Part shown: one piece after another, positions 1,811 through 43,518 of the stretch
Layout: each line of letters opens with the position of its first letter
Position numbering within the stretch: the stretch's first letter is position 1
Assembly: GCF_014132155.1 (NCBI RefSeq)
Contig: NZ_BLJQ01000002.1
Span: 500,845 to 564,844, forward strand
DNA: 64,000 bases
Origin: Gluconobacter sp. Gdi
GTDB lineage: Bacteria > Pseudomonadota > Alphaproteobacteria > Acetobacterales > Acetobacteraceae
Reading direction: 5' to 3'
The notes under the pieces: generated by a model
The model's input: only the letters and a program-made list of their open reading frames with translations
Database searches by the model: none
Told to the model about the DNA's origin: nothing
Made by a program: the position numbers and the translations under genes

Positions 1811-4765
1811 GTGTCTTCTGACAAAGAGCGCCCAGACCTGACCGGTACGACCTCCCGTGCGGCATTCGGGGGGTATGGTCACGAGGTTACGGACGAAGAA
1901 CGGGCCGAATGGCGGGAAGTCATGAATGCCCGGGCGCAGAATGCCTTCCGGCGTGGTCAGGAAGCGATGCAAACTGGTCGTTTGCAGGACGGTCTTTTCT
2001 GGCTGGAGCGGGCCGAGCGTATGGCGCGCCAGAGCCCGAACGTGACATGGGCTGTGGCGCTCGCTTACCTGAAGGTTGGCCGAATTGCCGAATGTCTGGT
2101 CCGTATGGAGCAGCTTTATAATGTGTTCAGGCTACGAGAGGCTGCTTTTCTATCTGTTGTCTGTTTGGCCGGGCAAAATCGGACAGAAGAAGCTGCCGCT
2201 CGTTTGGGAAAGACCCTCTCGTGCTTTCATATCCTGCCTGAGCTTCAGGAACTCGCGACAAATCTTGCAAAGCAGACGGGATTGGCAGGCTGGTGTACGG
2301 CTTCCAATGGCGGGTGGGTGGATGTTCAGACGTCCGGCATTTTTCGTATTCTGCTAGACGGGATGGAGATTGGGCGGGGCGTCAGTGGGCGTTACTTCCT
2401 GCCCGTTGGGTGGCCAAAAGCTTGTCGTCTGGAGGTGCGGTCCGGGCGGAAACATGTTCTTGGCAGCCCGATCAACATTCAGACTTTGACGCGTTGTGAA
2501 TCGCTTGTGCAGGCAACGGCGAATGGGCTTGAAGGGTGGCTCTGGTATCCTGCGGAGCCAGATCATGTGCCGTCAATCAGGCTTGGAGATGGAGACGTCC
2601 TTCAGGTTCCGGCCTTGGCAACGAACGTGGATAGTGACGTTCCCCTTTCAAGGCCTCGCGTCTTTGCCATCCCGAAAAATGAGCTACCAACCGAGGGGAA
2701 CGGTCTTCTGATGGTCACAGATGACCATGGGAGGCCTTTGTCTGGGGCGCCGGTTGATCCGCTGATCGGGAAACTACTGGCAGGCGATGGCACTCTTCCG
2801 TCTCGTTTGCGCCCCGTTCCAGTTATGCCGTGGAAACACCGTCCTGCCGATGATCGTGTGAGTCCCGGATGTGCGATTGTTATTCCAGTTTATCGCGATA
2901 AATCTGGGACGCTGGCCTGTCTGCAGAGCGTATTGAAAACCGTACCTGCAGATGTCGCTGTCATTGTAGTGGATGACGCTACACCTGAGCCGGCCTTGGC
3001 TGCAGCGTTGGATAACCTTGCAGCAAAAGGTCAGATAACGCTTTTCCGTCACGAACGTAATCTTGGATTTCCTACGTCCGCGAATGACGGAATGCGGCAG
3101 GCGGGTGGTCGGGATGTCATCCTTCTGAACAGCGACACTCTTGTATTCCCGGAGTGGGTTGAGCGCTTGCGTGCTCGTATGAATACAACGGATGTTGGGA
3201 CACTGACGCCATTTTCAAACGACGCCAGTATTCTGTCCTATCCGGCGGTGGATCAGGTTAACGACGTACCCAGCCGGGCTGAAGCCAGAGAGTTGGATCG
3301 TCTGTGTCTGCGTCAGTTTTCAGGGATGGCTGCAAAGAGTGATCTCCCGACGGGGAATGGCTTTTGCATGGCCATCACGGCGCACTGTCTGGCTGAGACA
3401 GGCTTTTTTCGGGAAGACCTGTTTGGGCAGGGCTATGGAGAAGAAAATGATTTCTGCCTACGGGCTTCTGCTCTAGGCTTTCGGCATTTTCCTGCACCCG
3501 ATGTCTATGTTGCCCATGTAGGGTCCGTGTCGTTCGGAAGCAGCCGGAAGGCGCTGATGGCGCGGAACCTGGATATCCTGAACGCTCTGCATCCAGGATA
3601 CGATGTTGCAGTTGCTGCTTTTTTGAAATCCGACCCACTTTTAGAACTCAGGCGGGCGCTTGATGTGGATCGTCTGCAACGCCAACGCGGCAGTAGGCCC
3701 TCGATTTTGCTTGTCCAACATGATGCTGGCGGCGGTGTAGGACGTGCCGTTCATCACAGAGCTGCCGAATTTGAGCGGCAGGGCCTGTTACCCCTCGGGT
3801 TACGCCCGACGGCTCAAGGATGCTTGTTGGAGTACCTGCCGGGTGGAAAGACGCTCTTTCCCAATCTCACGTTCAAGCTTCCGGAAGAGTTACCATTCCT
3901 TGTGGATGTCTTGTCTCAGCTTAGTGTGCAGAAAGTGGAGTGGCACCACCTTGTGGGGCATGCGCCCTGCATTCGGACGCTGCATCACATGCTCAACGTC
4001 CCATATGACATCTTCATTCATGATCATATCTGGTTTTGTCCCCGTATTTCGCTTCTGAATGGGGATGGCCGATATTGTGGGGAGCCTGAGGTTGCCGGAT
4101 GTGAGGCTTGTATTGACCGTTGGGGGGGATATCTGGGGGAAAGCATTACAGTTCCCGAACTGATCGAGCGCTCTGAGCAGGAATTTCGTGAGGCGGAGCA
4201 GTTGCTGGTCCCGTCACGGGATACCGCGCAGCGCATGTCACGCCATTTTCCTGATATGTTTTTTTGCGTTACGCCTCTGGAAGACGATGCTCACCTGCTG
4301 ACCAACCTGCCTGACAAAACAATGATTGTGCCGGGACGGCCATTGCGAATCTGTATTGTCGGTGGGCTGAGCCAATGGAAAGGCTATGACGTTCTGCTGG
4401 CAATGGCTCATCATGTTTCAACCATGCCGGTTCAGATTGAGCTTATACTTGTCGGGCACACGCCAGATGATGATGCTTTGATTGCTGCCGGCGTTAAAGT
4501 TACAGGAGAATATCGGGAAGATGAGGCTGTGGGCCTCGTTCGGGAACAATATGCCGACATAGGGTTTATTCCTTCCGTAGCGCCTGAAACCTGGTGTTAT
4601 GCGCTGGGGCTATTATGGAAAAGCGGCTTGCCCGTTGTGTGTTTCGATATCGGTGCCCAGTCGGAGCGTGTGCGACGGAGTAGACGGGGAGGTGTCGTAC
4701 CTCTCGGTATGCCCGTTGGATTAATCTTGGCTTTTATTTTGCGTTGCTGGCGTGAGGGAAGTTGA
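1811..4765 (+). CDS. Large bifunctional glycosyltransferase (TPR-like + GT2 + GT4)
   Basis: A 984-residue protein with a GTG start 6 bases after the Sel1 gene. Residues about 30-150 are helical and TPR-like. Residues about 170-330 are a beta-rich region containing a GLEGWLWYPAEP segment similar in style to the GW modules of the glycosyltransferase ending at 13584. Residues about 350-590 are a GT2 domain (CAIVIPVYRD, LLNSDTLVFPEW, then GEENDF acid residues). The rest resembles a GT4 domain (LVQHDAGGGVGRAV, an internal IHDHIWFCPRISLLNGDG segment with nearby cysteines, and a nucleotide-sugar half beginning ICIVGGLSQWKG). It probably adds two or more sugars to a surface polysaccharide or glycoprotein on the cytoplasmic face. 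Donor and acceptor cannot be deduced. Confidence 0.85.
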   Translation: MSSDKERPDLTGTTSRAAFGGYGHEVTDEERAEWREVMNARAQNAFRRGQEAMQTGRLQDGLFWLERAERMARQSPNVTWAVALAYLKVGRIAECLVRMEQLYNVFRLREAAFLSVVCLAGQNRTEEAAARLGKTLSCFHILPELQELATNLAKQTGLAGWCTASNGGWVDVQTSGIFRILLDGMEIGRGVSGRYFLPVGWPKACRLEVRSGRKHVLGSPINIQTLTRCESLVQATANGLEGWLWYPAEPDHVPSIRLGDGDVLQVPALATNVDSDVPLSRPRVFAIPKNELPTEGNGLLMVTDDHGRPLSGAPVDPLIGKLLAGDGTLPSRLRPVPVMPWKHRPADDRVSPGCAIVIPVYRDKSGTLACLQSVLKTVPADVAVIVVDDATPEPALAAALDNLAAKGQITLFRHERNLGFPTSANDGMRQAGGRDVILLNSDTLVFPEWVERLRARMNTTDVGTLTPFSNDASILSYPAVDQVNDVPSRAEARELDRLCLRQFSGMAAKSDLPTGNGFCMAITAHCLAETGFFREDLFGQGYGEENDFCLRASALGFRHFPAPDVYVAHVGSVSFGSSRKALMARNLDILNALHPGYDVAVAAFLKSDPLLELRRALDVDRLQRQRGSRPSILLVQHDAGGGVGRAVHHRAAEFERQGLLPLGLRPTAQGCLLEYLPGGKTLFPNLTFKLPEELPFLVDVLSQLSVQKVEWHHLVGHAPCIRTLHHMLNVPYDIFIHDHIWFCPRISLLNGDGRYCGEPEVAGCEACIDRWGGYLGESITVPELIERSEQEFREAEQLLVPSRDTAQRMSRHFPDMFFCVTPLEDDAHLLTNLPDKTMIVPGRPLRICIVGGLSQWKGYDVLLAMAHHVSTMPVQIELILVGHTPDDDALIAAGVKVTGEYREDEAVGLVREQYADIGFIPSVAPETWCYALGLLWKSGLPVVCFDIGAQSERVRRSRRGGVVPLGMPVGLILAFILRCWREGS

Positions 4766-4934
4766 GATGAACGGGTTTACGCTTCGACTGGAAAGAGTAA
4801 AATATAGAGCAGGAAAAAAGCAGAGCATTCTTTCTGCAGACAGTTCATAGACTGGGCTCCAGTCACGGAGTGTCTGGTGTAGCGCGAACCTGAAGATTTT
4901 TTCTCCCGGCAGACGGGAACAAGTGGAGTAGGGA

Positions 4935-5858
4935 ATGTCAAAGACGGCTGAAGCACCAACGCAAAATCGGGTCATTGACCTCAAGGCTGGTGCTCACATG
5001 ATGGTGCTGGATGCAGGTATTTTCTGTATCTTTCATGCCGCCGGGCAACCTGCACCAGGTCCCGCTGGTTTGCCAGGCGTCCGTATTTCCCGCGCGCCTG
5101 GAACGCCGCCGGGCATCGTGACAGTCAGCACCTTTGAGGAAGATGGCTGGATCGGCGCATCCAGCGGTGCCGCTCTGGTCCGGGTGACGCGCGGCCCAGC
5201 AGCTGTTCTGGTCACGACATATCAGGAACCGAACAGCCAGGCTGAAGCTCCAAAAATTCAGGTGGCGCAACTTGCTGGTCCGACGTCAGCAGTTCCTGCT
5301 GCTGTTGCCCCCGCGCAGTCTGCCGCTCCTGCACCCGAGGCCACTGGTGGGGTAGCCGAGATTTCGGCTCATGTTCAGCGCCGTGGTGATGTTGCCGCTC
5401 CGATCGGAGAATGGATGGGCACGCCGGGAAGTCAGGCGTGGATCGAAGGTTTTGCCATCGCTCCGAAAAACAGCATCCCGACTTCGGATATCGAATATCA
5501 GGCCGTGCTCGGAAAGGGCTGGCTCTCCCCTTGGTCTGAAGGTGGCCAGTATTGCGGCTCCCGTGGCATGGCTCTGCCTATTCTTGGGCTTCGGGTGCGT
5601 CTGAAGGGTGAATCCGCGCAGACACATCACGTGCGTCTCTCTTCCACTTTTACAGATGGAACACGTTTGGGGCCGGTAGATGGCACGGATGCGCTTGAAG
5701 CAGACAGTCTCGCGCCGCTCGAGGCATTTCTGCTTGAAATCATTCCCAATGATGCCGCGGAGGTTGCTCCGACAAAGGCGCGTACCAAGGCCGCTCCGAG
5801 CAAGGCTGCTAAAACAACAAAAACGCCTGCGAAGCGTAAGGCGAGCTCTGCAGTTTGA
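4935..5858 (+). CDS. Hypothetical protein with ChW-like domain and Lys/Ala-rich tail
   Basis: A 307-residue protein with ATG preceded by GGAG at 6 bases. It has three parts: an N-terminal beta-rich domain (residues about 10-100), an Ala/Pro/Gln linker (about 105-140), and a domain at about 150-270. In the third domain the spacing IEGFAI...DIEYQAVLGKGW...WSEGGQYCGSRG...ILGLRVRL resembles the ChW (clostridial hydrophobic, conserved Trp) repeat. The last 30 residues are a basic Lys/Ala/Thr tail of histone H1 style. No signal peptide is seen. It lies between two glycosyltransferase genes and may be a glycan- or surface-associated protein. ChW repeats are known mainly from Gram-positive surface proteins, so the similarity is tentative and the function unknown. 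Confidence 0.6.
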   Translation: MSKTAEAPTQNRVIDLKAGAHMMVLDAGIFCIFHAAGQPAPGPAGLPGVRISRAPGTPPGIVTVSTFEEDGWIGASSGAALVRVTRGPAAVLVTTYQEPNSQAEAPKIQVAQLAGPTSAVPAAVAPAQSAAPAPEATGGVAEISAHVQRRGDVAAPIGEWMGTPGSQAWIEGFAIAPKNSIPTSDIEYQAVLGKGWLSPWSEGGQYCGSRGMALPILGLRVRLKGESAQTHHVRLSSTFTDGTRLGPVDGTDALEADSLAPLEAFLLEIIPNDAAEVAPTKARTKAAPSKAAKTTKTPAKRKASSAV

Positions 5859-5868
5859 ATTTCATGAG

Positions 5869-5899
5869 GGCGGACTACTCTTCGATGTAGGCCGCCTTT
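5869..5899 (+). terminator. Probable rho-independent terminator
   Basis: A 10-bp stem with one mismatch (GGCGGACTAC pairing with GTAGGCCGCC) and an 8-base loop is followed by TTTA, starting 11 bases after the stop of the ChW-like gene. The T-tract is short, so termination may be weak. Confidence 0.5.
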
Positions 5900-6000
5900 A
5901 GTGATCCTTGGAAATGACAAGGGTCGATTAATTAAGATGCCTGAGATCTTGCGTATCTGGATTTTCGGGCTCAGAGACTCTTCAACAGCCAGGACTTGGT

Positions 6001-7236
6001 GTGCGCTACCTTTTTGTTCATCAGAACTTTCCTGGCCAGTTTCTGCATTTCGTCCGTCATCTGCATGAGCAGGGAGGGAATGAGATTGTTTTCATTTCCG
6101 AGGCCAATGCAGGTGAGGTTCCTGGGGTAAGGCGTGTCATTTATCGGGTGCCTCGCCTGCCATCCTCGTCTACTCATCCCCATCTCCGAGAGTTCGAATA
6201 CGGAATTCTGCGCGCAGAAGCTGTCGCCACAGCCGCTAGGACTCTCAAGCAGCTAGGATATGAGCCTGACATCATTATCGGGCATCATGGCTGGGGCGAA
6301 CTGCTCAATCTTGGGGATGTCTTTCCGAAATGTCCGGTGCTGGGATATTTCGAATTTTTCTATCATACAGATCGTAATGATGTCGGGTTCGACCCCGAAT
6401 TTCCATCCAGTTCGGACCTCGCCGCTGCGGTTCGGATCAAGAATGCGATCAATCTGCAGGCTCTTTCCCTGACGAATGGCTATGGTCAGACGCCTACGGA
6501 ATTCCAGAGATCAACTTATCCCGTCTGGGCTCAGGAAAAAATTTCGCTTCTTCGTGAAGGTGTAAATCTCGATCTTTGCAAGCCGGAGCCGCAGGCTCGC
6601 AAGCGCAATCTTCTCATTAATGGCGTCAAGATCAGCCCGAAGGACGCTCTTATTACGTATGTTGCGCGTAATCTGGAACCGTATCGTGGCTTTCATTCCG
6701 CAATGCGTGCCCTCCCACGCATTCTTGCGGAACGAAAGGACGCCCATATCATCATGGTGGGCGGAGATCAGGTCAGCTACGGCGCCCCTCCACCAGGGCG
6801 GGGTAGCTGGCGTGATATTATGCTCAAGGAGCTTGAAGGCCAGCTTGACCTAAGCCGCGTCCATTTTGTGGGTAAGGTTGCGTATGATGACTTCCGTGCG
6901 TTGCTGAAGCGTTCAGATGCTCATCTCTATCTGACGTATCCTTTTGTTGCCTCGTGGTCCCTGCGAGAAGCCATGGCAACGGGATGCCCTATTATTGGCA
7001 GTGATACGGCACCTGTAAGTGAATTCATTACAGATGGCCTGACCGGTCGGCTGGTGCCGTTTCTTGAGCCCGATCGTATTGCGGATGTTGTTCTGGAATT
7101 GTTGGAAGACCGCAAACAGGCGCGACGTCTGGGCCAGGATGCCCGTCGCTATGCTGAAGCTGAGTTGTGTCTACAGGGTTATCTGAAGCGCTATGACGCT
7201 CTGGTGCAGGAGATCGTCAGCGGGCATCACCGCTGA
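6001..7236 (+). CDS. Glycosyltransferase family 4 protein
   Basis: A 411-residue GT-B enzyme with a GTG start and AGGA about 7 bases upstream. The N-terminal half starts with VRYLFVHQNFPGQF and contains a GHHGWGE segment. The C-terminal half has the nucleotide-sugar-binding features of GT4: ITYVARNLEPYRGF, VHFVGKVAYDDF, and the SWSLREAMATGCPIIGSDT stretch with its conserved E. This family transfers a sugar from an NDP-sugar with retention of configuration to lipid-linked or polymeric acceptors. It sits alone between the ChW-like gene and a convergent glycosyltransferase, within a dense glycan locus. Substrate unknown. Confidence 0.88.
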   Translation: MRYLFVHQNFPGQFLHFVRHLHEQGGNEIVFISEANAGEVPGVRRVIYRVPRLPSSSTHPHLREFEYGILRAEAVATAARTLKQLGYEPDIIIGHHGWGELLNLGDVFPKCPVLGYFEFFYHTDRNDVGFDPEFPSSSDLAAAVRIKNAINLQALSLTNGYGQTPTEFQRSTYPVWAQEKISLLREGVNLDLCKPEPQARKRNLLINGVKISPKDALITYVARNLEPYRGFHSAMRALPRILAERKDAHIIMVGGDQVSYGAPPPGRGSWRDIMLKELEGQLDLSRVHFVGKVAYDDFRALLKRSDAHLYLTYPFVASWSLREAMATGCPIIGSDTAPVSEFITDGLTGRLVPFLEPDRIADVVLELLEDRKQARRLGQDARRYAEAELCLQGYLKRYDALVQEIVSGHHR

Positions 7237-34402: not shown

Positions 34403-34438
34403 AAAGCCCCGCCCTGTTTTCAGGTGCGGGGCTTTTTT
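34403..34438 (+). terminator. Rho-independent terminator of the RND operon
   Basis: AAAGCCCCGC pairs with GCGGGGCTTT, extended by an inner CCTG/CAGG pairing, and is followed by eight T's. It ends the operon 26 bases after the last stop. Confidence 0.92.
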
Positions 34439-34520
34439 TTCGCTCATGGGAACGGGGCCTGCCTGTGTCCTCGCATGACCGAGTTTGTCGGAAAACAGAC
34501 ACACTTTATCAAAACCCTAT

Positions 34521-34535
34521 TGAGAATGTTTCTCA
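34521..34535 (+). promoter_or_regulatory. Fur box upstream of TonB receptor
   Basis: TGAGAATGTTTCTCA is a perfect 6-3-6 inverted repeat, close to the Fur core TGAGAAT-x-ATTCTCA. It lies 57 bases before the receptor start, so iron repression through Fur is expected. Confidence 0.75.
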
Positions 34536-34591
34536 TTACCAATATAGGGATTCCCGAATGTAAAATAACTTGTCTGAATGAAGAGGTTCCG

Positions 34592-36946
34592 GTGACAGGC
34601 TCGCTGCGCACACACATTACGTCTCTTTCAGTTGCCGGTACGCTCCTGATGTCTTCCCAAGGGTATGCTGCCGACCCTGTGAAGCATGAAAAAAAGCCAG
34701 AGCGTAAACCCGAGTCACCAACGCGGCATTTTGAAGATCCAACTGATATCGAAGGATCTGATGTCGAACATCTGACGGTTCAGGGGCATGGGTTTAACAC
34801 CATGCATCAGTCCCTCGGGCTCTCCCGGATGCCGCAGGATGTCATGCATACACCGCAGAACATCAATGTTGTGCCGCAGGCCCTGATGCAGCAGCAGAAT
34901 GTCAAATCTCTCGATGAAGCTCTGAGGAATGTGCCGGGGGTGACAACGTCCATCGGTGAGGGCGCTGGTGGTATGAACGGGGATCAGTTCCTGATCCGCG
35001 GATTTCAGGCCCAGAATGATATTTATGAAGATGGCCTGCGGGACTTCGGTGTGTATTCCCGCGATTCATTCAATTTCGAAAATGTGTCTGTCATCAAAGG
35101 GCCGTCTTCCGAAGTTTTCGGGAATGGTACGACGGGGGGCGCCATCAACATGGTGACTAAAACCCCGGGTTTGAAGAACCATTATGCGGCTGATTTTTCG
35201 GGCGGATCAGGCAGTTATTATCGCGGCACGCTGGATGTGAACCAGAAAATCAATGACTCTACAGCCTTCCGGATTACGGGCATGGGCGATGAGCATAATG
35301 TTGTAGGACGAGATTATATCTTCTCCCATCGCTGGGGTGTTGCTCCATCGCTTGCATTTGGGATCGGAAAGAGAACAACACTTATTCTGCAGTACATGCA
35401 CCAGCAGGAGAACTCCGTTCCTGATTTCGGTGTCCCGGTCGTTACCAAGCCGGGCGCAAAGTACGGGCAGCCTATTACGGAATACGGTATCCGTCGGACG
35501 AACTGGTACGGAACGGATAACGACCAGAATGCCACCAACTCCAACATGGAAACAGCACGTTTCAGCTTCAAGCTGAACAAGCATGTCACGTTCTATGACG
35601 ATTTGCGTGGTGGTGAATATTACCGGTCTTTTGCAGCCTCAAAAGCGACCTGCGATACCACCTGTGTGAATAATTACTTCAACGGCGATGCCTCAAAAGC
35701 ACTTGTTGCGCGTTCCGGGCCTGTTGGTGCAGGCGCGGGCACGGGCGCCGGAACGTACATGGCACCGTTACCTTATGAGCAAACAAGCTGGTCTGTGCAG
35801 AATGTCGGCTCAATGGTGGCTGATTTCCATACGAGCTTTCTCAAGCATCAACTGGTTGCCGGGTTTGATGTGGAGCGCGTTAATGATGTTCGCTCCCAGT
35901 CGACGTATCTGAAGCCAAAACCTTATGCGAACCTTGTTAATCCAAACCCGCACGTGGGAAATCTGGATCTCGTACCAGGGGACATGAATCCGGGTGGTCT
36001 GGTGTCTCTGGGTTCCCTGGGCGCGAAGTCTCACAGCAATGGTTACGGGTTCGACACCGGTCTGTTCCTGTTCGATCAGATCTGGTTCACCAAGTGGCTC
36101 TCTGTGAAAGGTGGTTTCCGCTGGGATCGCTGGCAGACAAGCTATAATCTGACGGGAGGCAATGTTGCGAAGAACCCCGATCAGCATTTTCATGATGTTA
36201 CAGGCGTCTTCAATCCGAACGCCAGCCTTGTCGTAACGCCGGACGAACATCAGACTTATTATTTCACCTGGGCCAATTCTACGACCCCGATGGGAATGTA
36301 CGTCACCAATGGGTCTGTCCCCATTCGTCCGGGAACCAATTCTTTTGCCAGCCCGGAGAAGGCTCAGCTTTATGAGCTTGGGGCCAAGTACAGCATTCTC
36401 CATGACCGCCTGGGGCTGACCGCCTCACTGTTCCGTCTGGACAAGGGCAATGCACTGAATGCTGATCCGGTGACCGGTGAAATTCAGGGGTCTTCTGATC
36501 GGCAGCGCAATCAGGGACTGGAACTGTCTGTCGGGGGTGTCATTCTGCCGGGCTGGAACGTGTCAGCGACCTATGCCCTTTATGATAGCAGCACGACGTC
36601 TTCTGCGACCAAGGCGAACCGCGGCAAGAATGTTCAGTATGTGCCACACAATCAGGCAACACTCTGGTCCGCATATAGTGCCTTCCCGGATAAACCCTAT
36701 AACCTGACGATGGGTGGTGGACTGACCTGGCGTGAGCATGTCTGGTTGAATGCGGCCAATACGCTGCGTGCACCCGCCAACCTGGACTTCAGTGCCATGA
36801 TTTCCCATCGCTTTAATCAGCATTGGAAAATCTCTATGAATGGTTACAATCTGGCCAACAGATTGAACTATCAGAGTCTTTTCTCAAACCGTTCAACGCC
36901 ATCCGCAGGGCGTATGTTCCTGGGAGAAGTCAGCGTAGCGTATTGA
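34592..36946 (+). CDS. TonB-dependent siderophore receptor (Fiu-like)
   Basis: About 784 residues. Signal peptide at about 1-28 (SLSVAGTLLMSSQGYAA). The plug domain is typical (PQNINVVPQALMQQQNVKSLDEALRNVPGV, then FLIRGFQAQNDIYEDGLRD and VIKGPSSEVFGNGTTGGAINM), followed by a 22-strand barrel that ends in an aromatic-terminated strand (GEVSVAY). It imports ferric siderophores, probably catecholate type. GTG 34592 is preceded by AGAGG at 6 bases; the frame extends upstream into the terminator and Fur box, so those starts are rejected. The Fur box supports an iron role. Exact ligand unknown. Confidence 0.9.
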   Translation: MTGSLRTHITSLSVAGTLLMSSQGYAADPVKHEKKPERKPESPTRHFEDPTDIEGSDVEHLTVQGHGFNTMHQSLGLSRMPQDVMHTPQNINVVPQALMQQQNVKSLDEALRNVPGVTTSIGEGAGGMNGDQFLIRGFQAQNDIYEDGLRDFGVYSRDSFNFENVSVIKGPSSEVFGNGTTGGAINMVTKTPGLKNHYAADFSGGSGSYYRGTLDVNQKINDSTAFRITGMGDEHNVVGRDYIFSHRWGVAPSLAFGIGKRTTLILQYMHQQENSVPDFGVPVVTKPGAKYGQPITEYGIRRTNWYGTDNDQNATNSNMETARFSFKLNKHVTFYDDLRGGEYYRSFAASKATCDTTCVNNYFNGDASKALVARSGPVGAGAGTGAGTYMAPLPYEQTSWSVQNVGSMVADFHTSFLKHQLVAGFDVERVNDVRSQSTYLKPKPYANLVNPNPHVGNLDLVPGDMNPGGLVSLGSLGAKSHSNGYGFDTGLFLFDQIWFTKWLSVKGGFRWDRWQTSYNLTGGNVAKNPDQHFHDVTGVFNPNASLVVTPDEHQTYYFTWANSTTPMGMYVTNGSVPIRPGTNSFASPEKAQLYELGAKYSILHDRLGLTASLFRLDKGNALNADPVTGEIQGSSDRQRNQGLELSVGGVILPGWNVSATYALYDSSTTSSATKANRGKNVQYVPHNQATLWSAYSAFPDKPYNLTMGGGLTWREHVWLNAANTLRAPANLDFSAMISHRFNQHWKISMNGYNLANRLNYQSLFSNRSTPSAGRMFLGEVSVAY

Positions 36947-37010: not shown

Positions 37011-37571
37011 TTATTCTTGAGACGCTCTTTGCCATTTGAACAGTCCATGCACCGCCAGACCCACAAATATCGCGTAAAGTGCAGCCGTTGGATAAAGGGT
37101 GCGATTGATGAACATGGCAACATAAGCTGTATCGATCACGATCCAGCAGGCCCAACTGATCGTATGGCGTCGCGCGGCCCAGATCTGCGCGACCAGACTG
37201 TAACTACTCAGGAAAGCATCAGCCATAGGGGTGGGGTCATCTGTAAAACGCGCCAGACAGAAAGCCCACAATCCGCCGCCTAGTGCGCCGCTCAGTAGAC
37301 CGAAGAGAAGCCCGCGCCCTGAAAGCGGCCGAATATGCAGGGTGTCATCACCCTGAGCGCCGTCTCTTATCCAGCACCACCAGCCATAAATCAGACAGCC
37401 ACAGAATACAGCCTGAAGACAGGCATCAGCGTAAAGATGAGCTTTGAAAAATACCCATCCATATAAGAGCGCGGCAAGAAGAGAGAATGGCCAACAGGCC
37501 ATGTTGCGGCGTGCTGTCAACCACACGCCCATGGCGCTGAGCAGGGCCGCGATGAGTTCTGTCAGGGACAT
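37011..37571 (-). CDS. pnuC: PnuC-family vitamin transporter, probably thiamine (PnuT)
   Basis: A 186-residue inner-membrane protein with about seven hydrophobic segments. Its family signature includes GVWLTARRNMACWPFSLLAALLYG and YGWWCWIRDG, typical of PnuC. PnuC proteins are facilitators that depend on phosphorylation of the cargo inside the cell. Most carry nicotinamide riboside, but the thiamine branch (PnuT) is found behind TPP riboswitches. Here the operon starts with a TPP riboswitch and contains a kinase gene overlapping by 10 bases, so thiamine is the likely cargo. The family is certain and the substrate is inference from regulation. Confidence 0.9.
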   Translation of the reverse strand: MSLTELIAALLSAMGVWLTARRNMACWPFSLLAALLYGWVFFKAHLYADACLQAVFCGCLIYGWWCWIRDGAQGDDTLHIRPLSGRGLLFGLLSGALGGGLWAFCLARFTDDPTPMADAFLSSYSLVAQIWAARRHTISWACWIVIDTAYVAMFINRTLYPTAALYAIFVGLAVHGLFKWQRASQE

Positions 37572-38704
37572 ACCGCAGTGCCGTTCAGAGTTTTACGGAG
37601 CCAGTTCAGAAGGTGTTGTCCTTCATGGCCTGCAAACCAGTGTGCATGGCCCAGAAGATAGTCCGCATAGGCAACGTGTGCGGATGCCTCATCGCGAAGC
37701 AGCGCGCTGTAATATGCGACCTCAGACAATGCGAATTCGACATGAACAAGCGGTAGAAACGTAACGACCAGTTTGCATTCCTGGGGTGTGAGAGGGCGGA
37801 TATTCTGATAGCCCCTCAGAAGTGCGGTTAGCTGGTCCGATGAGACGCGATAATCGGTTGAGAGCCATGAGATGGCAGTGCGTTCAATGGCAACTGCAAG
37901 ATCGTAAGCGGCGCAGGTGCGATCAGACATACCAAAATCAAAGATCCCGCAAATTTCGGCATCTGGAGTATCCGAAGTCCAGAACTGGTTGGATGGATGC
38001 CAATCGCCGTGTCCCCAGCAGGGGACAATATCCATCAGGAGGGGTCGAAGCTTTGCATGGAAAGGTTCGAGAACACTCAGGATCTGCTGCCAGGATTGGG
38101 GATTTAACGTTGCATTGAGGTCCGGTTGAGACGCGCTCCAGACGCGAAGGCCAGTCTCAAGATCCGGGTAGGTAATGGCATTGAAGCTGGACAGCAAAAG
38201 CCGATCAGGCCGGGCGGGAGCTGTATAATCTGTTGCCGCAAGATGCAGACGAGCGAGTGCACTTCCTGCCGTGTGTGCTTGTTTGGAACTGAGAAACGGC
38301 TCCCAGGACTGAACGTCTCGATAAAGGTCCAGACCGGGTAAGGGAGGAAAGACCTCGTAAACCCAGCCATGATCCGTCAGCGCCGAATGTCCATTCTGCG
38401 TTTTGAGCGGTGAGGTCACGGGTAGGTGATGACGCACAAGGTGTGCCATGAAGTCATGTTCTTCCGTCAGGGCGTTCTGATCGCGCAAGCGTGGATCATG
38501 ACGCTTTAGAAAAAGCACCGTGCCGTCGGTAAGGCGGGTCAGGGCTGTCGCGGAGAACGGGCGTTGTCCATGCCACAGAACAGTTTCTGGAGCGGCCGAG
38601 TTGGGAAAAAACGCCAGAACACGTTTCGCCTCGGCGAGCGTCAGCGGCGGCCAGTGCCGTTCAGCCTGCACACCATTGACGCCGAACTGTCCGGGAGCGG
38701 CCAC
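37562..38704 (-). CDS. APH-fold phosphotransferase, probable thiamine kinase
   Basis: About 380 residues with the aminoglycoside-phosphotransferase/choline-kinase fold. The ATP-binding Lys is in TVLFLKRHDPR, the catalytic loop is PCWGHGDWHPSNQFW (Asp and Asn), and the metal-binding Asp is in GIFDFGMSDRT. E. coli ThiK (YcfN) belongs to this fold. Between a riboswitch-controlled receptor and a PnuC-type permease it would phosphorylate imported thiamine and trap it. GTG 38704 lies 5 bases after the receptor stop; a GTG at 38779 would overlap that gene. Substrate is inferred; other small alcohols cannot be excluded. Confidence 0.78.
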   Translation of the reverse strand: MAAPGQFGVNGVQAERHWPPLTLAEAKRVLAFFPNSAAPETVLWHGQRPFSATALTRLTDGTVLFLKRHDPRLRDQNALTEEHDFMAHLVRHHLPVTSPLKTQNGHSALTDHGWVYEVFPPLPGLDLYRDVQSWEPFLSSKQAHTAGSALARLHLAATDYTAPARPDRLLLSSFNAITYPDLETGLRVWSASQPDLNATLNPQSWQQILSVLEPFHAKLRPLLMDIVPCWGHGDWHPSNQFWTSDTPDAEICGIFDFGMSDRTCAAYDLAVAIERTAISWLSTDYRVSSDQLTALLRGYQNIRPLTPQECKLVVTFLPLVHVEFALSEVAYYSALLRDEASAHVAYADYLLGHAHWFAGHEGQHLLNWLRKTLNGTAVCP

Positions 38705-38708
38705 GGGT

Positions 38709-41084
38709 TCAGAAGCCTGTGGACGCTGTGAACAGGGCTGCGAAACCGCCGCCGATGTAATAACTTGGGGCGCTCCCACTGATCGTGCTGCCGTAAATGC
38801 CGGTCGTATCCTTTGCGTTCAGGGTCGGGCTGGCAACGCCGGACAGGGAGCGCTCATTGGTGATGTTGATGAAGTTCAGGCGCAGGGTTGGCTTGTGCAG
38901 GCGGGACAGATCACCGAAGCGATAGCCGACGGAAATATCGCCTGTTGTGCGGTCTGACATCCGCTCATCATTCATGAACGTTGCGTATTGGTGCCCCGTG
39001 TAATGCAGGGTGGCGACGCCGAAGATGTGCCCGTCATCGTAGCTGAGGCCAGCCGCAGCCTGAAGTGTCGGGCTGCGAACAGCGAGTTTGCCTTTGGTCG
39101 GTAGAAGATCGCCACCTGAGGCAATGTTATTATCAATGGTGGCGTGCAGATACTCGCCGGAAACATAGGGGCTGAAGTGGTGCCAGGGGCGGAGGCCGAT
39201 TTCCACATCCACACCGCGCGAGGTCTGGCCGCCGGCATTCATGGTCGTCTGAATGATGGAGCCGTTCTGGGAGGCCAGCGTTGAGATCTGGCGGTTGGTG
39301 AAATTGTAGTTGAACAGCGTCAGGCTGCCGATGATCCATTGTCCCGTACGGCGATATCCCAGTTCTTCGGAAATGGAATATTCGTTGCGGACATCCGCAC
39401 TGCCGGTTGTCGCGAGTGCGCCGGAGGTTGGGTCGTAGGTGTTGTAAAGCGCCGTCTGGTCTGGCGCGCGGAAATTGGTCGTGGCGTTGAAGAAAATCTG
39501 GTTCTGCTCATCAATGCGCCAGCGGACGCCAAGGCGCGGCAGAGGCTCCATGCTGTTTGACGCCACACGATACTGAGGGCCGGGAACATTGTTCGTGCCA
39601 GCGCGGCTCATCATGACGGCCTTGAAACCCGCCTCGATGGTCAGGCGATCATGCAGGAGCGAGATGTGATCGCCCACATACAGCGCGTTGGTCTGGGAAA
39701 TGGTGTGGAAGCTGCCGCCCAGCAGTTTCTGTCCGTTCGCAAGATGGATCAGGCTACTGTTGTTTTCCGCCCAGATATCGCCTGAGGCGCCGGTGGCAGA
39801 AACGGTTGTGAAGGGCTGCTGCTCGTTGTCGTCTCCGTAATCATACCAGTAACCGAGGACGAAATCGTTCCAGCCGGTTTTGTAATGCAGGGTGGAATTG
39901 AATCCGGAGCGATAACTGCGTTGCGTGTAGTTGGCACGGACGACAGCGGTCCCGTCCTGCGCATTGGGTAGCGTAAGCGTGTCACTCAGGGGCTGAGTGC
40001 CGTTATAGAGGCCTGTTTCCGTCAGTGTGGAGCCACCCGGAACGTTGCCATAGGCGAACTGTGCGTAGGGTGTGATGTCCAGAGAAAGCTGATGCGTCAG
40101 ATGCAGATGGACGGGTGCGCCTGCATAGAAGGTGCGTTCCGGCGCGCGCCACAGACGCCAGTAATTGACGGCATTGTCTGCGTTGGAGGCGTCATAATGG
40201 CCTGCAAGGTTGTTCGCGCCATGAATGCCATCGGCTTTCCAGCTTTCCATCGTGACCTGCGGATAATAGCTGGTGACGGTGGTGTTGAAGGAGCCGATGA
40301 GGCTGGCGCGGTTGCCTTGGCCCCATTCCTTCAGGAACTTGAAATCGACATGCTGGCGCTTGTCCCGCCCCGGCCCACGCCAGTTGTCGCTGGCGCTGTG
40401 GGAGTAGGATACAAAGCCACGAATGCCGGAATTGCCGATGTTTCCCGTTTCAAGGCGGATGAATTCGCGGTTGGTGTCGAAGGAGCCATAGGAGACGCTG
40501 GCGAAACCCCCGGCCTTCTGTGACGGGTCGAGAAAGGACAGGCTCATCAGCCCACCGGCGGCGTTTAGAACGGGGCTGTCCAGATCTGCGGAACCTTGGG
40601 CAAGTGCGACTTGGCTGTAGTTTTCGCTATCGGCGAACTGACTCGGATAGCCGGAATAATAGGCGACATCGTTCAGCGGCGTGCCTTCCAGCACATAGCC
40701 GATGGCATCATTGTTCAGGCCGCGCACGGTCAGGTTGGTGTTGGGCGAAAAGCCGAACGGATCGGATGTGGCGACATTCGCACCGGGCAGCATGGAGGCG
40801 AGCTGATAGGCCGTCGCCATCGGGGGCTGCTTGTCCATGTAGTCGCGGCTGACTGTGCTGATAGAGCGAACGCTGTTTTCCGGTCGGATCAGTCCGCCGC
40901 CGGGCTGGTGCCCGAGTGCGCTGTCAGAGACGCGGTGAACAGTGATGTGCTCGGCTTTCGGGGCGATGGACGCATGCGGGGTAAGGGCTGTCGTGTCAGC
41001 CGCGCGCACCGTACCAGCACAGACGGTCAGGCCGAGCAGGACGGCAGGAACCTGACGGGATTTGCGCGGAAATCTGGTGGTCAT
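38709..41084 (-). CDS. TonB-dependent receptor, probable thiamine uptake
   Basis: About 791 residues. Signal peptide at about 1-27 (VPAVLLGLTVCAGTVRAAD). The TonB-box-like start IAPKAEHITVHRVSD is followed by the plug (MDKQPPMATAYQLASMLPGANVAT, LTVRGLNNDAIGYVLEGTPLND) and a barrel ending in an aromatic residue (FTASTGF). ATG 41084 is chosen because the longer frame starts at 41183 inside the TPP aptamer. The riboswitch directly upstream indicates thiamine or a precursor as substrate. It is the first gene of the operon. Only the receptor class is certain from the protein itself. Confidence 0.88.
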   Translation of the reverse strand: MTTRFPRKSRQVPAVLLGLTVCAGTVRAADTTALTPHASIAPKAEHITVHRVSDSALGHQPGGGLIRPENSVRSISTVSRDYMDKQPPMATAYQLASMLPGANVATSDPFGFSPNTNLTVRGLNNDAIGYVLEGTPLNDVAYYSGYPSQFADSENYSQVALAQGSADLDSPVLNAAGGLMSLSFLDPSQKAGGFASVSYGSFDTNREFIRLETGNIGNSGIRGFVSYSHSASDNWRGPGRDKRQHVDFKFLKEWGQGNRASLIGSFNTTVTSYYPQVTMESWKADGIHGANNLAGHYDASNADNAVNYWRLWRAPERTFYAGAPVHLHLTHQLSLDITPYAQFAYGNVPGGSTLTETGLYNGTQPLSDTLTLPNAQDGTAVVRANYTQRSYRSGFNSTLHYKTGWNDFVLGYWYDYGDDNEQQPFTTVSATGASGDIWAENNSSLIHLANGQKLLGGSFHTISQTNALYVGDHISLLHDRLTIEAGFKAVMMSRAGTNNVPGPQYRVASNSMEPLPRLGVRWRIDEQNQIFFNATTNFRAPDQTALYNTYDPTSGALATTGSADVRNEYSISEELGYRRTGQWIIGSLTLFNYNFTNRQISTLASQNGSIIQTTMNAGGQTSRGVDVEIGLRPWHHFSPYVSGEYLHATIDNNIASGGDLLPTKGKLAVRSPTLQAAAGLSYDDGHIFGVATLHYTGHQYATFMNDERMSDRTTGDISVGYRFGDLSRLHKPTLRLNFINITNERSLSGVASPTLNAKDTTGIYGSTISGSAPSYYIGGGFAALFTASTGF

Positions 41085-41094
41085 GATGGTGCTG

Positions 41095-41133
41095 TCCCGC
41101 CTGCAATGCTGCGATCCCCCTGCAAGGCGGGGA
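41095..41133 (-). promoter_or_regulatory. Possible expression-platform hairpin before the receptor start
   Basis: On the minus strand CCCGCCTTGCA can pair with TGCAGGCGGG (one bulge) directly before the start region at 41084. The pairing would sequester sequence near the ribosome binding site. It lies between the TPP aptamer and the ATG. Confidence 0.5.
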
Positions 41134-41177
41134 CGACGAGAGATACCGAAAATCCAGTCTGTGGATCTGTCAGTAGC

Positions 41178-41296
41178 CACCATCCCTCCGCCAGCATGAA
41201 CTGGATCAGGTTCGATGGGTCACTGCGCTGGTATGGCTCGAAAGCACATACCATCAGCAGTCTCTCAGCCCTTTGTCAGGGCGCCCCAAGGTGAAG
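41178..41296 (-). promoter_or_regulatory. TPP (THI-box) riboswitch
   Basis: On the minus strand, the aptamer's two conserved blocks are present in order: GGGCTGAGA (41271-41263) with GGGGCGCCC just before it, and CGAACCTGATC followed by a CAGTTCATGCTGG-type arm and GGCGGAGGGATGG. These match the thiamine pyrophosphate aptamer (P2 loop CUGAGA, and ACCUGAUC in P4/P5 junction). CACC and GGTG at the ends can close P1. TPP binding would switch off the receptor-kinase-permease operon. Confidence 0.95.
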
Positions 41297-41406
41297 ACGC
41301 ACTCCTTCATGGGCTGCGAGCGAATGTCAATAAATTCCGTATTGCGTGGGGGTATCAAAATTTCGTCGGCAGGGATGGAGCGGCGAGGCAGAGCAGGATA
41401 GAGTAT

Positions 41407-41421
41407 TGTTATAAGATAACA
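41407..41421 (+). promoter_or_regulatory. Palindrome in promoter of the S46 peptidase (Zur-box-like)
   Basis: TGTTATAAGATAACA is a perfect 6-3-6 inverted repeat 16 bases before the peptidase ATG, followed by TTTC. It resembles the Zur core GTTATA-N-TATAAC. It also contains TG-T-TATAAG, which could be an extended -10. Either reading is possible. Confidence 0.5.
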
Positions 41422-41436
41422 TTTCTAGGATCTGTC

Positions 41437-43518
41437 ATGCGTGTTGTTAAGCGCTTGTTACCTGCTCTGCTCATTGCAGGCACAGCCCTCGGTTCAGCTC
41501 AGGCTGAGGAAGGAATGTGGACGTTCGATCATCTGCCAGCCCGTCAGTTAAAGCAGCAATATGGGTTTGAGCCTTCCGCTGAATGGATCAATCATGTCAT
41601 TCAATCTTCAGCACGTCTGGCAGAAGGATGCTCGGCGTCCTTTGTCTCTGGTGACGGGTTGGTGATGACGAATCATCATTGTGCCAATACCTGCCTGACG
41701 GATCTGTCAGACAAGACACACGACTATTTTCATGATGGTTTTTCGGCAGCAGATGTTTCCAAAGAGCCGCAGTGCCCGGGCATGGAGCTGGATCGTCTGG
41801 ATCAGGTGAAAGACGTGACAGGCCGTGTCGCTGATATGACCGCAGGCAAGCACGGTGCAGAGTATGCAAAGGCGCTTCAGGCTGCCAGTAGCGTTCTGAC
41901 GAAGGAATGTGCGGGCGGAGATGCAACACACTGGCGGTGTGATGTTGTGACGCTTTACCATGGTGGTCAGACCGCCCTGTATCGCTATCGTCGATATCAG
42001 GATGTGCGCCTCGTGATGGCGCCAGATCAGGATATCGCATTCTTTGGCGGCGATCCGGACAATTTTACCTTCCCACGTTATGATATCGACCTGTCGATGT
42101 TGCGGGTGTTTGAGGACGGTAAGCCGGTCCACACACCTTTCTTCAAGTTTGATCCGAAAGGGCCAAAAGCAGGAGAGCTGGTGTTCACGTCTGGTAATCC
42201 CGGGCGAACGCAGCGGTCTCTTCCGGCCAGTGCATTGACGTTTCAGCGGGACGTTATCCTGCCAACCATCATTGGGGTGTATTCTACCAGCGAAGGGGCG
42301 CTCTGGCAGTATTCGCGTGAAAGCAAGGAACATCTGATTGAAGCGCAAAATACGCTGTTCGGCGTTCAGAACGGCCTAAAATCTCTGTCGGGCACCGTGA
42401 AGGCTCTGCGGGAACCCGGCGTGATGGAAAAGCGTGAAGCGGAAGATCGCGCTCTTCAGGCCTGGATTGATGCGGATGCCGAGCGCCGCAAGACCTATGG
42501 CGAGCCGTTCAAAAAAGTGGAGGCTGCACTGGCCATACAGCGCCAGTCTTATGGCCATGATTTTGCCATTGCCCGTACCGTTCATGGCCTGCTCGGTGAT
42601 GCTGTCATGCTGGTATCAGCCGCGCAGGAGCGACAGAAGCCGGATGCCGAGCGCCGTGCGGGCTACCACGATGCCGAACTGGCTGAACTTGAAGCTGAAA
42701 TTTCTGCCAAAGTGCCGGTGCATGTCGATCTGGAAACCATGACGCTGGCTCTGGGCATGACCACGATGCGTCAGATGCTGGGTGAGGATGATGCTGCCGT
42801 TCATCTGGTTCTCGGCACAAAAAGCCCGGATGAACGCGCTACGGAGCTGATGCAGGGAACGAAGCTTGCTGATCCTGCGCAGCGCCTTGCGTTGTATAAG
42901 GGTGGTGCAAAGGCCATTCAGGCCTCTACGGACCCGATGATTGTTCTAGCCCGTCAGTTGCAGCCGGTTCTGGATGTGATCCGCAATCGAAGCCGTGATC
43001 AGATCGAAGCACCAATGCATGAAGCTCAGGGTGCGATTGCCCGTGCCCAGTTTGCGCGCGCTCAGGCAGAAGGACAGGCAGATACGCTTTACCCGGATGC
43101 TACATTCTCACCAAGACTGTCTTACGGCACCGTCAAAGGTTGGCAGGATGGTGCCAAGACCATTGCGCCTTTCACAAACTTTGCCGGAATGTACAAACAT
43201 GCGACCGGGAGCGATCCGTTCCGCCTTCCGCAGGTCTGGCTGGATGCAAAACCTCATCTGACACTTTCCACGAATCTCGATTTTGTTTCGACGAATGATA
43301 TCGTGGGTGGAAATTCAGGCTCCCCGGTCATTAACCGGCAGGGCAATGTGGTGGGCCTGATTTTCGATGGCAATCTCGATAGTCTGGCGGGCGATCTTTA
43401 TTACGATGGCGAGCGCAACAGAGCGGTTTCGACGGATACAAGTGCCATCATGGCTGCACTCAAGACCGTCTATCATGCCGATGCCCTTGCTCAGGAACTG
43501 GAACAGGGGCACCTGTAA
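41437..43518 (+). CDS. S46-family dipeptidyl peptidase (DPP7/DPP11 type)
   Basis: About 693 residues with a Sec signal (LPALLIAGTALGSAQA, cleavage near residue 23). It is a chymotrypsin-fold exopeptidase that removes dipeptides in the periplasm. The catalytic His lies in MTNHHCANTCL (residues about 78-84), the Asp region is DNFTFPRYDIDLSM, and the nucleophile Ser is in GGNSGSPV. The S1 residue position FDGN carries Gly, as in hydrophobic-specific DPP7, rather than the Arg of acidic-specific DPP11. AGGA is 6 bases before ATG 41437. A weak hairpin follows the gene. Confidence 0.92.
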   Translation: MRVVKRLLPALLIAGTALGSAQAEEGMWTFDHLPARQLKQQYGFEPSAEWINHVIQSSARLAEGCSASFVSGDGLVMTNHHCANTCLTDLSDKTHDYFHDGFSAADVSKEPQCPGMELDRLDQVKDVTGRVADMTAGKHGAEYAKALQAASSVLTKECAGGDATHWRCDVVTLYHGGQTALYRYRRYQDVRLVMAPDQDIAFFGGDPDNFTFPRYDIDLSMLRVFEDGKPVHTPFFKFDPKGPKAGELVFTSGNPGRTQRSLPASALTFQRDVILPTIIGVYSTSEGALWQYSRESKEHLIEAQNTLFGVQNGLKSLSGTVKALREPGVMEKREAEDRALQAWIDADAERRKTYGEPFKKVEAALAIQRQSYGHDFAIARTVHGLLGDAVMLVSAAQERQKPDAERRAGYHDAELAELEAEISAKVPVHVDLETMTLALGMTTMRQMLGEDDAAVHLVLGTKSPDERATELMQGTKLADPAQRLALYKGGAKAIQASTDPMIVLARQLQPVLDVIRNRSRDQIEAPMHEAQGAIARAQFARAQAEGQADTLYPDATFSPRLSYGTVKGWQDGAKTIAPFTNFAGMYKHATGSDPFRLPQVWLDAKPHLTLSTNLDFVSTNDIVGGNSGSPVINRQGNVVGLIFDGNLDSLAGDLYYDGERNRAVSTDTSAIMAALKTVYHADALAQELEQGHL

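Follow-up and report, generated by a model that had tools for sequence, protein, structure and literature searches.

A TPP riboswitch-associated operon in Gluconobacter proposed to direct thiamine capture, facilitated entry and trapping by an APH-fold kinase

The 64 kb stretch of Gluconobacter DNA analysed here (the window) was found to carry a TPP riboswitch aptamer followed by genes for a TonB-dependent receptor, an APH-fold kinase and a PnuC-family permease, and this operon very probably directs the capture of thiamine, its facilitated entry and its trapping by the kinase. At the level of sequence, this reading draws on the aptamer, the gene order, the protein families, the intact kinase motifs and a host gene set in which ThiC, ThiE and ThiL, and no TPK, were identified.

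Genetic organisation of the operon

The operon is located on the minus strand of a 670 kb contig in a genome of 3.55 Mb, and has the following features.

41166..41298, minus strand: TPP riboswitch aptamer (RF00059, 70.7 bits, full model)
41095..41133, minus strand: putative expression platform, a hairpin in which CCCGCC pairs with the SD-like GGCGGG upstream of the receptor start (inferred from RNA folding)
38709..41084, minus strand: TonB-dependent outer-membrane receptor, 791 aa, proposed thiamine receptor (PF00593 and PF07715, both over cut-off)
37562..38704, minus strand: APH-fold kinase (380 aa from the GTG taken as start), a proposed thiamine kinase outside the ThiK family (PF01636; NCBIfam; model pLDDT 90.9)
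37011..37571, minus strand: PnuC-family permease, 186 aa, proposed PnuT-type thiamine facilitator (PF04973, 164.9 bits; tree)

Behind the aptamer, the genes are tightly packed in the order receptor, kinase, permease. The likely start of the kinase gene is the GTG at 38704, 4 bases past the receptor stop, and the permease gene, from its ATG at 37571, overlaps the end of the kinase gene, whose stop is at 37562. The same parts on the same strand had been listed in a first-pass annotation of this DNA, and the list was borne out by the Rfam and Pfam matches. The aptamer and gene order are shared by a near neighbour, Gluconobacter cerinus NBRC 3267 (L004), where the receptor, kinase and PnuC share 98%, 82% and 89% identity, respectively, with those of the window.

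A second TonB-dependent receptor gene (34424-36946, plus strand) points towards the operon, and the best model for its product is that of the catecholate siderophore receptor Fiu (334.9 bits against a cut-off of 686). The operon also has a divergent neighbour, a peptidase S46 gene (41215-43518, plus strand; 670.1 bits). As called automatically, this ORF begins in the stretch that holds the aptamer on the opposite strand; its likely start, judged by eye from the signal peptide, is at ~41439.

The TPP riboswitch

The first-pass annotation had placed a TPP aptamer at 41178-41296, and the Rfam covariance model RF00059 confirmed it with a strong match at 41298-41166 (minus strand; 70.7 bits against a gathering score of 54.3; E 6.9e-12) that is complete over model positions 1-105. 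This was the sole Rfam match at the gathering threshold within the 64 kb. At E 0.001, two TPP aptamers were found in the host genome, that of the operon and one of 42.7 bits located ~450 bases upstream of the ThiC match. In G. oxydans 621H, one TPP riboswitch, at thiC, is given in the Rfam table of PMC5756330, and premature termination at thiC was suggested there by RNA-seq.

In the leader of the operon, the SD-like GGCGGG pairs with CCCGCC ahead of the receptor start to form a sequestor hairpin, and the 3' part of the aptamer is able to pair with the same SD-like stretch, which suggests translational OFF control. The ligand-free folding energies are ambiguous on the switching mechanism and are no proof of OFF control: the best fold (-92.1) has the sequestor and lacks the native aptamer, and other folds reach -83.0 with the antisequestor and -79.8 with aptamer and sequestor together.

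Distribution of the operon in Acetobacteraceae

A search of 150 Acetobacteraceae genomes identified PF04973 at E 0.001 in 25, over the cut-off in 24, and all 25 loci were compared with the proteins of the window by tblastn. The receptor, kinase and permease genes were found to be contiguous in 19 of the 25 (the window, L036-L038, L040-L045, L047-L052, L054, L055 and L058). Two further loci (L039 and L046) have the kinase and permease without a receptor match, and the remaining four are L053, L056, L057 and a weak fragment, L059.

A TPP aptamer is present ahead of the receptor in 7 of the 19 operons (G000, G032, G066, G070, G101, G118 and G136). At 11 others, none was found in a genome-wide search at E 0.1, and in L043 (G030) the contig begins inside the receptor gene such that the leader is outside the sequence. 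As the same search recovered an aptamer ahead of ThiC in 20 of 20 ThiC-bearing genomes, it does find aptamers in these genomes. A second TPP aptamer in G046 and G126 (L067) is located ahead of genes that, by eye, resemble thiO and thiG, leaving the receptor operon of these two genomes without one. The tblastn pieces were also seen to change frame in the receptor of G136 (L045, 7785-10038; three frames) and in the receptor and kinase of G126 (L051, 2930-6213), which could reflect either decay or assembly errors.

Thiamine genes and the likely cargo

The best evidence for thiamine as the cargo is the gene content of three genomes, G032, G070 and G136. The window's host has ThiC, ThiE and ThiL and a single PF04973 match. 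TPK (PF04263) was matched neither in the host genome nor in any of the 25 genomes with PF04973, and the TPK search gave matches in 7 of 14 control genomes; another thiamine-phosphorylating enzyme would therefore be needed for salvage. ThiC was found in 20 of the 25 genomes, and all 25 have ThiL over the cut-off and a match to PF02581. In G032, G070 and G136 the PF02581 match is only 26-35 bits, and these weak proteins were rejected as ThiE because they appear to resemble a paralogue that is present beside the true ThiE in the host and in G118. In these three genomes, ThiC and ThiE seem to have been lost and ThiL retained. Each carries the aptamer-receptor-kinase-permease operon, though in G136 the tblastn match to the receptor breaks into three frames.

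ThiL needs thiamine monophosphate. The simplest reading is that these three bacteria would live on imported thiamine, with the operon kinase making thiamine monophosphate, and this kinase is the evident candidate for thiamine phosphate synthesis in them; an unrelated ThiK, or direct import of thiamine phosphate, is possible instead. Genomes with ThiL and the operon, and without ThiC, a true ThiE or TPK, together with the aptamer match, support the capture-and-trap route for thiamine that the first-pass annotation had read from this operon.

The operon might instead import a thiamine precursor, HMP or thiazole, with the kinase being an HMP or thiazole kinase, and TPP would then be sensed because the precursor feeds TPP synthesis. 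Precursor import is plausible in G029 (L056 6119-7401, L062 and L084) and G116 (L057 and L060), two genomes without ThiC and with a strong ThiE. In both, TPP aptamers precede genes for related receptors at sites separate from PnuC, and PnuC has no window-type kinase near by; a tandem PnuC pair in G029 has its own TPP aptamer. These receptors and PnuC proteins perhaps import the HMP precursor. However, the whole operon occurs in G032, G070 and G136, where precursors could not be joined into thiamine phosphate without a true ThiE, and the kinase is missing exactly in G029 and G116, where precursor import makes sense. Precursor import by the operon is thus unlikely.

The receptor

The receptor of the proposed thiamine operon has the Plug (PF07715, 35.9 bits) and beta-barrel (PF00593, 93.7 bits) domains of TonB-dependent receptors, both over the cut-off. 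Its relatives are annotated as 'TonB-dependent siderophore receptor', the mislabelling of which the first-pass annotation had warned. This label, and a similarity to haem receptors that falls below the cut-off (51.1 bits against 316.85), would fit a receptor for siderophores or haem that simply happens to stand behind the same leader; a further variant is a receptor importing thiamine phosphate. Together these readings are very unlikely. Two observations oppose siderophore or haem uptake: the receptor gene is the first to follow the aptamer in the window, as in the other six riboswitch operons of the family, and a related receptor in G029 and G116 is preceded by a TPP aptamer of its own at a site separate from PnuC.

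In a receptor tree of 24 rows, the window's receptor joined those of L037 (G131) and L040 (G054), from two other Gluconobacter genomes (support 99). The kinase and PnuC of these two loci are only 37-42% identical to those of the window despite the shared receptor lineage; their PnuC proteins group with that of L036 (99), and their kinases join beta-, gamma- and plasmid rows (86). At E 0.1, the genome-wide search found no TPP aptamer at the L037 and L040 operons. Within Gluconobacter, it seems that the receptor was conserved while the kinase-permease pair behind it was swapped. As the window's receptor has no tblastn match at 1e-3 in the beta- and gammaproteobacterial loci described below, it is probable that a receptor was recruited more than once.

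A different arrangement was observed in L053 (G048; 2004-6688 and 1-739), where a receptor 42% identical to that of the window is followed by a 495-aa thiaminase I-like protein (TIGR04541, 44.1 bits against a cut-off of 175). The L053 PnuC groups with E. coli PnuC, and a hydroxyethylthiazole kinase (PF02110, 183.2 bits) is encoded near by. This locus may represent a cut-and-salvage version, with thiamine cleaved before it reaches the cytoplasm and one of the fragments imported.

The permease

The permease matched PF04973 with 164.9 bits against a cut-off of 27.3. In a quick tree of 84 PnuC rows with SH-aLRT supports, it was placed within a group of 32 rows (90), 30 of which are accompanied by a window-type kinase. 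The 11 PnuC rows linked to ThiK form another clade (100), and E. coli PnuC is separated from the window's group by a long branch (100). The next larger group, of 42 rows (94), adds rows without a window-type kinase, and in two of these (L136 and L139) the PnuC gene is adjoined by one for an AAA_28 protein, which we take to be a NadR-type kinase. It is probable that this part of the PnuC family has seen a change of cargo. With NadR-type neighbours so close to the window's group, the PnuC tree alone is weak evidence on cargo and was given up as a cargo test. The first-pass annotation had looked to such a tree, and its outcome is divided, as the window's permease is far from E. coli PnuC but near the L136 and L139 rows. 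Single residues separating thiamine from nicotinamide riboside permeases were also sought, and no clean rule was found among the columns printed, position 147 being D or N in both kinds.

Relatives of the permease are annotated as 'nicotinamide riboside transporter PnuC', and if database annotation were followed the operon would import nicotinamide riboside, with the kinase a nicotinamide riboside kinase. The match to TIGR01528 (84.5 bits, over the cut-off of 42.45) and the NadR-type neighbours of nearby PnuC rows lean the same way. However, TIGR01528 is also over the cut-off for the PnuC proteins of the TPP-riboswitch loci L134 and L149, and is therefore uninformative on cargo. With the TPP aptamer and the distance from E. 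coli PnuC also standing against it, nicotinamide riboside import is very unlikely. That the riboswitch class predicts the cargo of Pnu transporters is argued in the part of PMC7749635 used here.

The kinase

The proposed thiamine kinase belongs to the APH superfamily by its PF01636 match (83.2 bits), its His-x-Asp and second Asp motif and its predicted structure (pLDDT 90.9), and residues H232, D234, N239 and D256 are invariant in 32 of 32 window-type kinases. Relatives are annotated as 'aminoglycoside phosphotransferase family protein'. None of the 32 matched the ThiK model TIGR02721 at E 0.001, and an identity as ThiK was rejected; of the first-pass reading of this protein, the APH fold stands and the ThiK assignment falls. 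All 32 matched a homoserine-kinase model far under its cut-off (66.5 bits against a curated cut-off of 271 for PRK05231, and 41.2 against 255.9 for TIGR00938), and identity as homoserine kinase was likewise rejected on these scores. By NCBIfam models and, among the matches listed, fold searches with the predicted structure, the kinase is placed nearer to homoserine and N-acetylhexosamine kinases than to ThiK. E. coli ThiK (b1106) shares with it the APH superfamily and the conserved His-x-Asp and second Asp, but forms a clade separate from the window-type kinases in a tree with long branches.

Related loci beyond Acetobacteraceae and on plasmids

Among 398 Pseudomonadota genomes, PF04973 was found at E 0.001 in 98 and over the cut-off in 92, and 51 PnuC loci were picked by hand for spread, hence non-randomly. 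A TPP aptamer at the gathering score was identified at 14 of the 51. Ten of these (L134, L140, L141, L148, L149, L152, L153, L163, L166 and L168) combine an aptamer with a receptor-sized ORF, judged by eye, a PnuC gene and an APH kinase gene, identified by Pfam in 10 of 10. The kinases of eight of these ten, and that of L154, which has no aptamer match, all matched the ThiK model (9/9) and the GntI model (9/9), in every case below the cut-off. A window-type kinase was found at three more of the 14 aptamer loci (L151, L156 and L159), and is encoded ahead of the aptamer. In the last of the 14, L145, no kinase was found and the aptamer and PnuC gene are on opposite strands, and in Burkholderia arboris (L174) PnuC and kinase genes were found with no aptamer at the gathering score.

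In three gammaproteobacterial loci (L147, L150 and L179), PnuC and receptor genes are near regulator or phosphatase genes. A GntR/UTRA regulator is encoded in L147 and a GntR regulator, by annotation, in L179; genes for e(P4)-type acid phosphatases are present in L150 (PF03767) and, by annotation, in L179. No TPP aptamer was found at E 0.1 in L147 and L179, or at the gathering score in L150. The phosphatase of L150 and L179 perhaps frees thiamine from its phosphates.

Three Sphingomonadaceae plasmid loci were read. Two of them, L171 and L172, have the order aptamer, receptor, window-type kinase, PnuC, and in L170 the genes are present and an aptamer was not found. In two Acinetobacter plasmids the order is kinase, receptor, PnuC, and a TPP search at E 0.1 gave no match. 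When plasmids were searched with the kinase as query, 37 records matched; as 25 of the 37 are from Acinetobacter, they represent few independent lineages. The 35 records with at least 80% query coverage all have a PnuC match, at most 4 kb away in 34; in the plasmid NZ_CP103869, kinase and PnuC are at opposite ends of the record. Two weak plasmid kinase matches (Arthrobacter and Paraburkholderia) are absent among the 60 of 71 PnuC records listed. Window-type kinases thus occur in alpha-, beta- and gammaproteobacteria and on plasmids.

Comparison with known systems

Tnr3, the phosphorylating partner in the thiamine system of Bacteroidetes, is a TPK-type enzyme. According to the sections of PMC5613172 used here, OMthi, pnuT and tnr3 of Bacteroidetes are under a TPP riboswitch (in B. 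thetaiotaomicron, BT2390 and BT2396-BT2397), and receptor and permease deletions were growth-tested. That system and the window's operon are alike in the TPP riboswitch, the TonB-dependent receptor, the PnuT-type permease and the enzyme held to phosphorylate thiamine, encoded in one operon in most of the Bacteroidetes genomes examined (PMC5613172). As far as those sections go, they differ in that Tnr3 phosphorylates there, whereas here an APH-fold kinase would do so in a genome with no TPK found and with ThiL for the second step, and in that the order here is receptor-kinase-permease. The first-pass annotation had considered the three-gene unit less familiar, but its logic, with another kinase, is already known from that Bacteroidetes work (PMC5613172). 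The permease can be likened, by the descriptions in parts of PMC7749635 and PMC5613172, to the PnuT of Shewanella woodyi and B. thetaiotaomicron, which are also TPP-riboswitch-linked members of the PnuC family, and a Variovorax TPP-riboswitch operon with a TonB-dependent receptor and a thiamine permease is mentioned in the part of PMC10409787 used.

The ten gammaproteobacterial ThiK-like loci also have a riboswitch, PnuC and an APH-fold kinase in one gene run. However, their order is receptor-PnuC-kinase, their PnuC rows form their own clade (100), and the window's receptor has no tblastn match there at 1e-3.

The import logic is therefore known, and what looks new is a third kinase solution. 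In the open-access literature searched, neither the operon in Acetobacteraceae nor the kinase family is named in any title or abstract opening. It is reasonably likely that the window's kinase represents an undescribed family of thiamine kinases, the third trap after Tnr3/TPK and ThiK behind a PnuC-type facilitator, that the kinase and PnuC form a cassette spread over alpha-, beta- and gammaproteobacteria and plasmids, and that Gluconobacter genomes have swapped this pair while keeping the receptor in front of it.

Proposed pathway and implications

Thiamine is favoured by the aptamer directly ahead of the receptor, the operon order conserved in 19 of 25 loci, the kinase-PnuC pair near TPP aptamers in L171, L172, L151, L156 and L159, the kinase-PnuC linkage on plasmids (34 of 35 within 4 kb) and the L053 receptor (42% identity) beside a thiaminase I-like protein. 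Counting against it are the aptamer in only 7 of the 19 family operons, its absence likewise from the Acinetobacter, Burkholderia and certain further related loci, a host that can make thiamine itself, a kinase nearer to homoserine and N-acetylhexosamine kinases, PnuC kin beside a NadR-type kinase and the split receptor of G136.

In the proposed pathway, low cellular TPP would cause the leader to permit expression of the operon, and the receptor would import scarce thiamine over the outer membrane using TonB energy. The PnuC-type facilitator would pass thiamine through the inner membrane, and the APH-fold kinase would convert it to thiamine monophosphate, which is trapped inside and would be converted to TPP by ThiL. 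High TPP would turn the operon off, probably by masking the ribosome-binding site of the receptor gene. Inferred in this scheme are the identity of the cargo, the need for TonB, phosphorylation of the cargo by the kinase, repression by TPP and the way in which the leader switches.

If this is correct, many genes annotated as 'aminoglycoside phosphotransferase' and 'nicotinamide riboside transporter' would be thiamine salvage genes. A concrete, testable function could be given to a kinase family whose current name refers to antibiotic resistance and to a permease group that bears the name of another vitamin, and the acetic acid bacteria that rely on external thiamine could be predicted. A single import logic would be served by different kinases in different bacterial groups, such that the partner kinase and the riboswitch, not the permease tree, would reveal the cargo of PnuC-type transporters.
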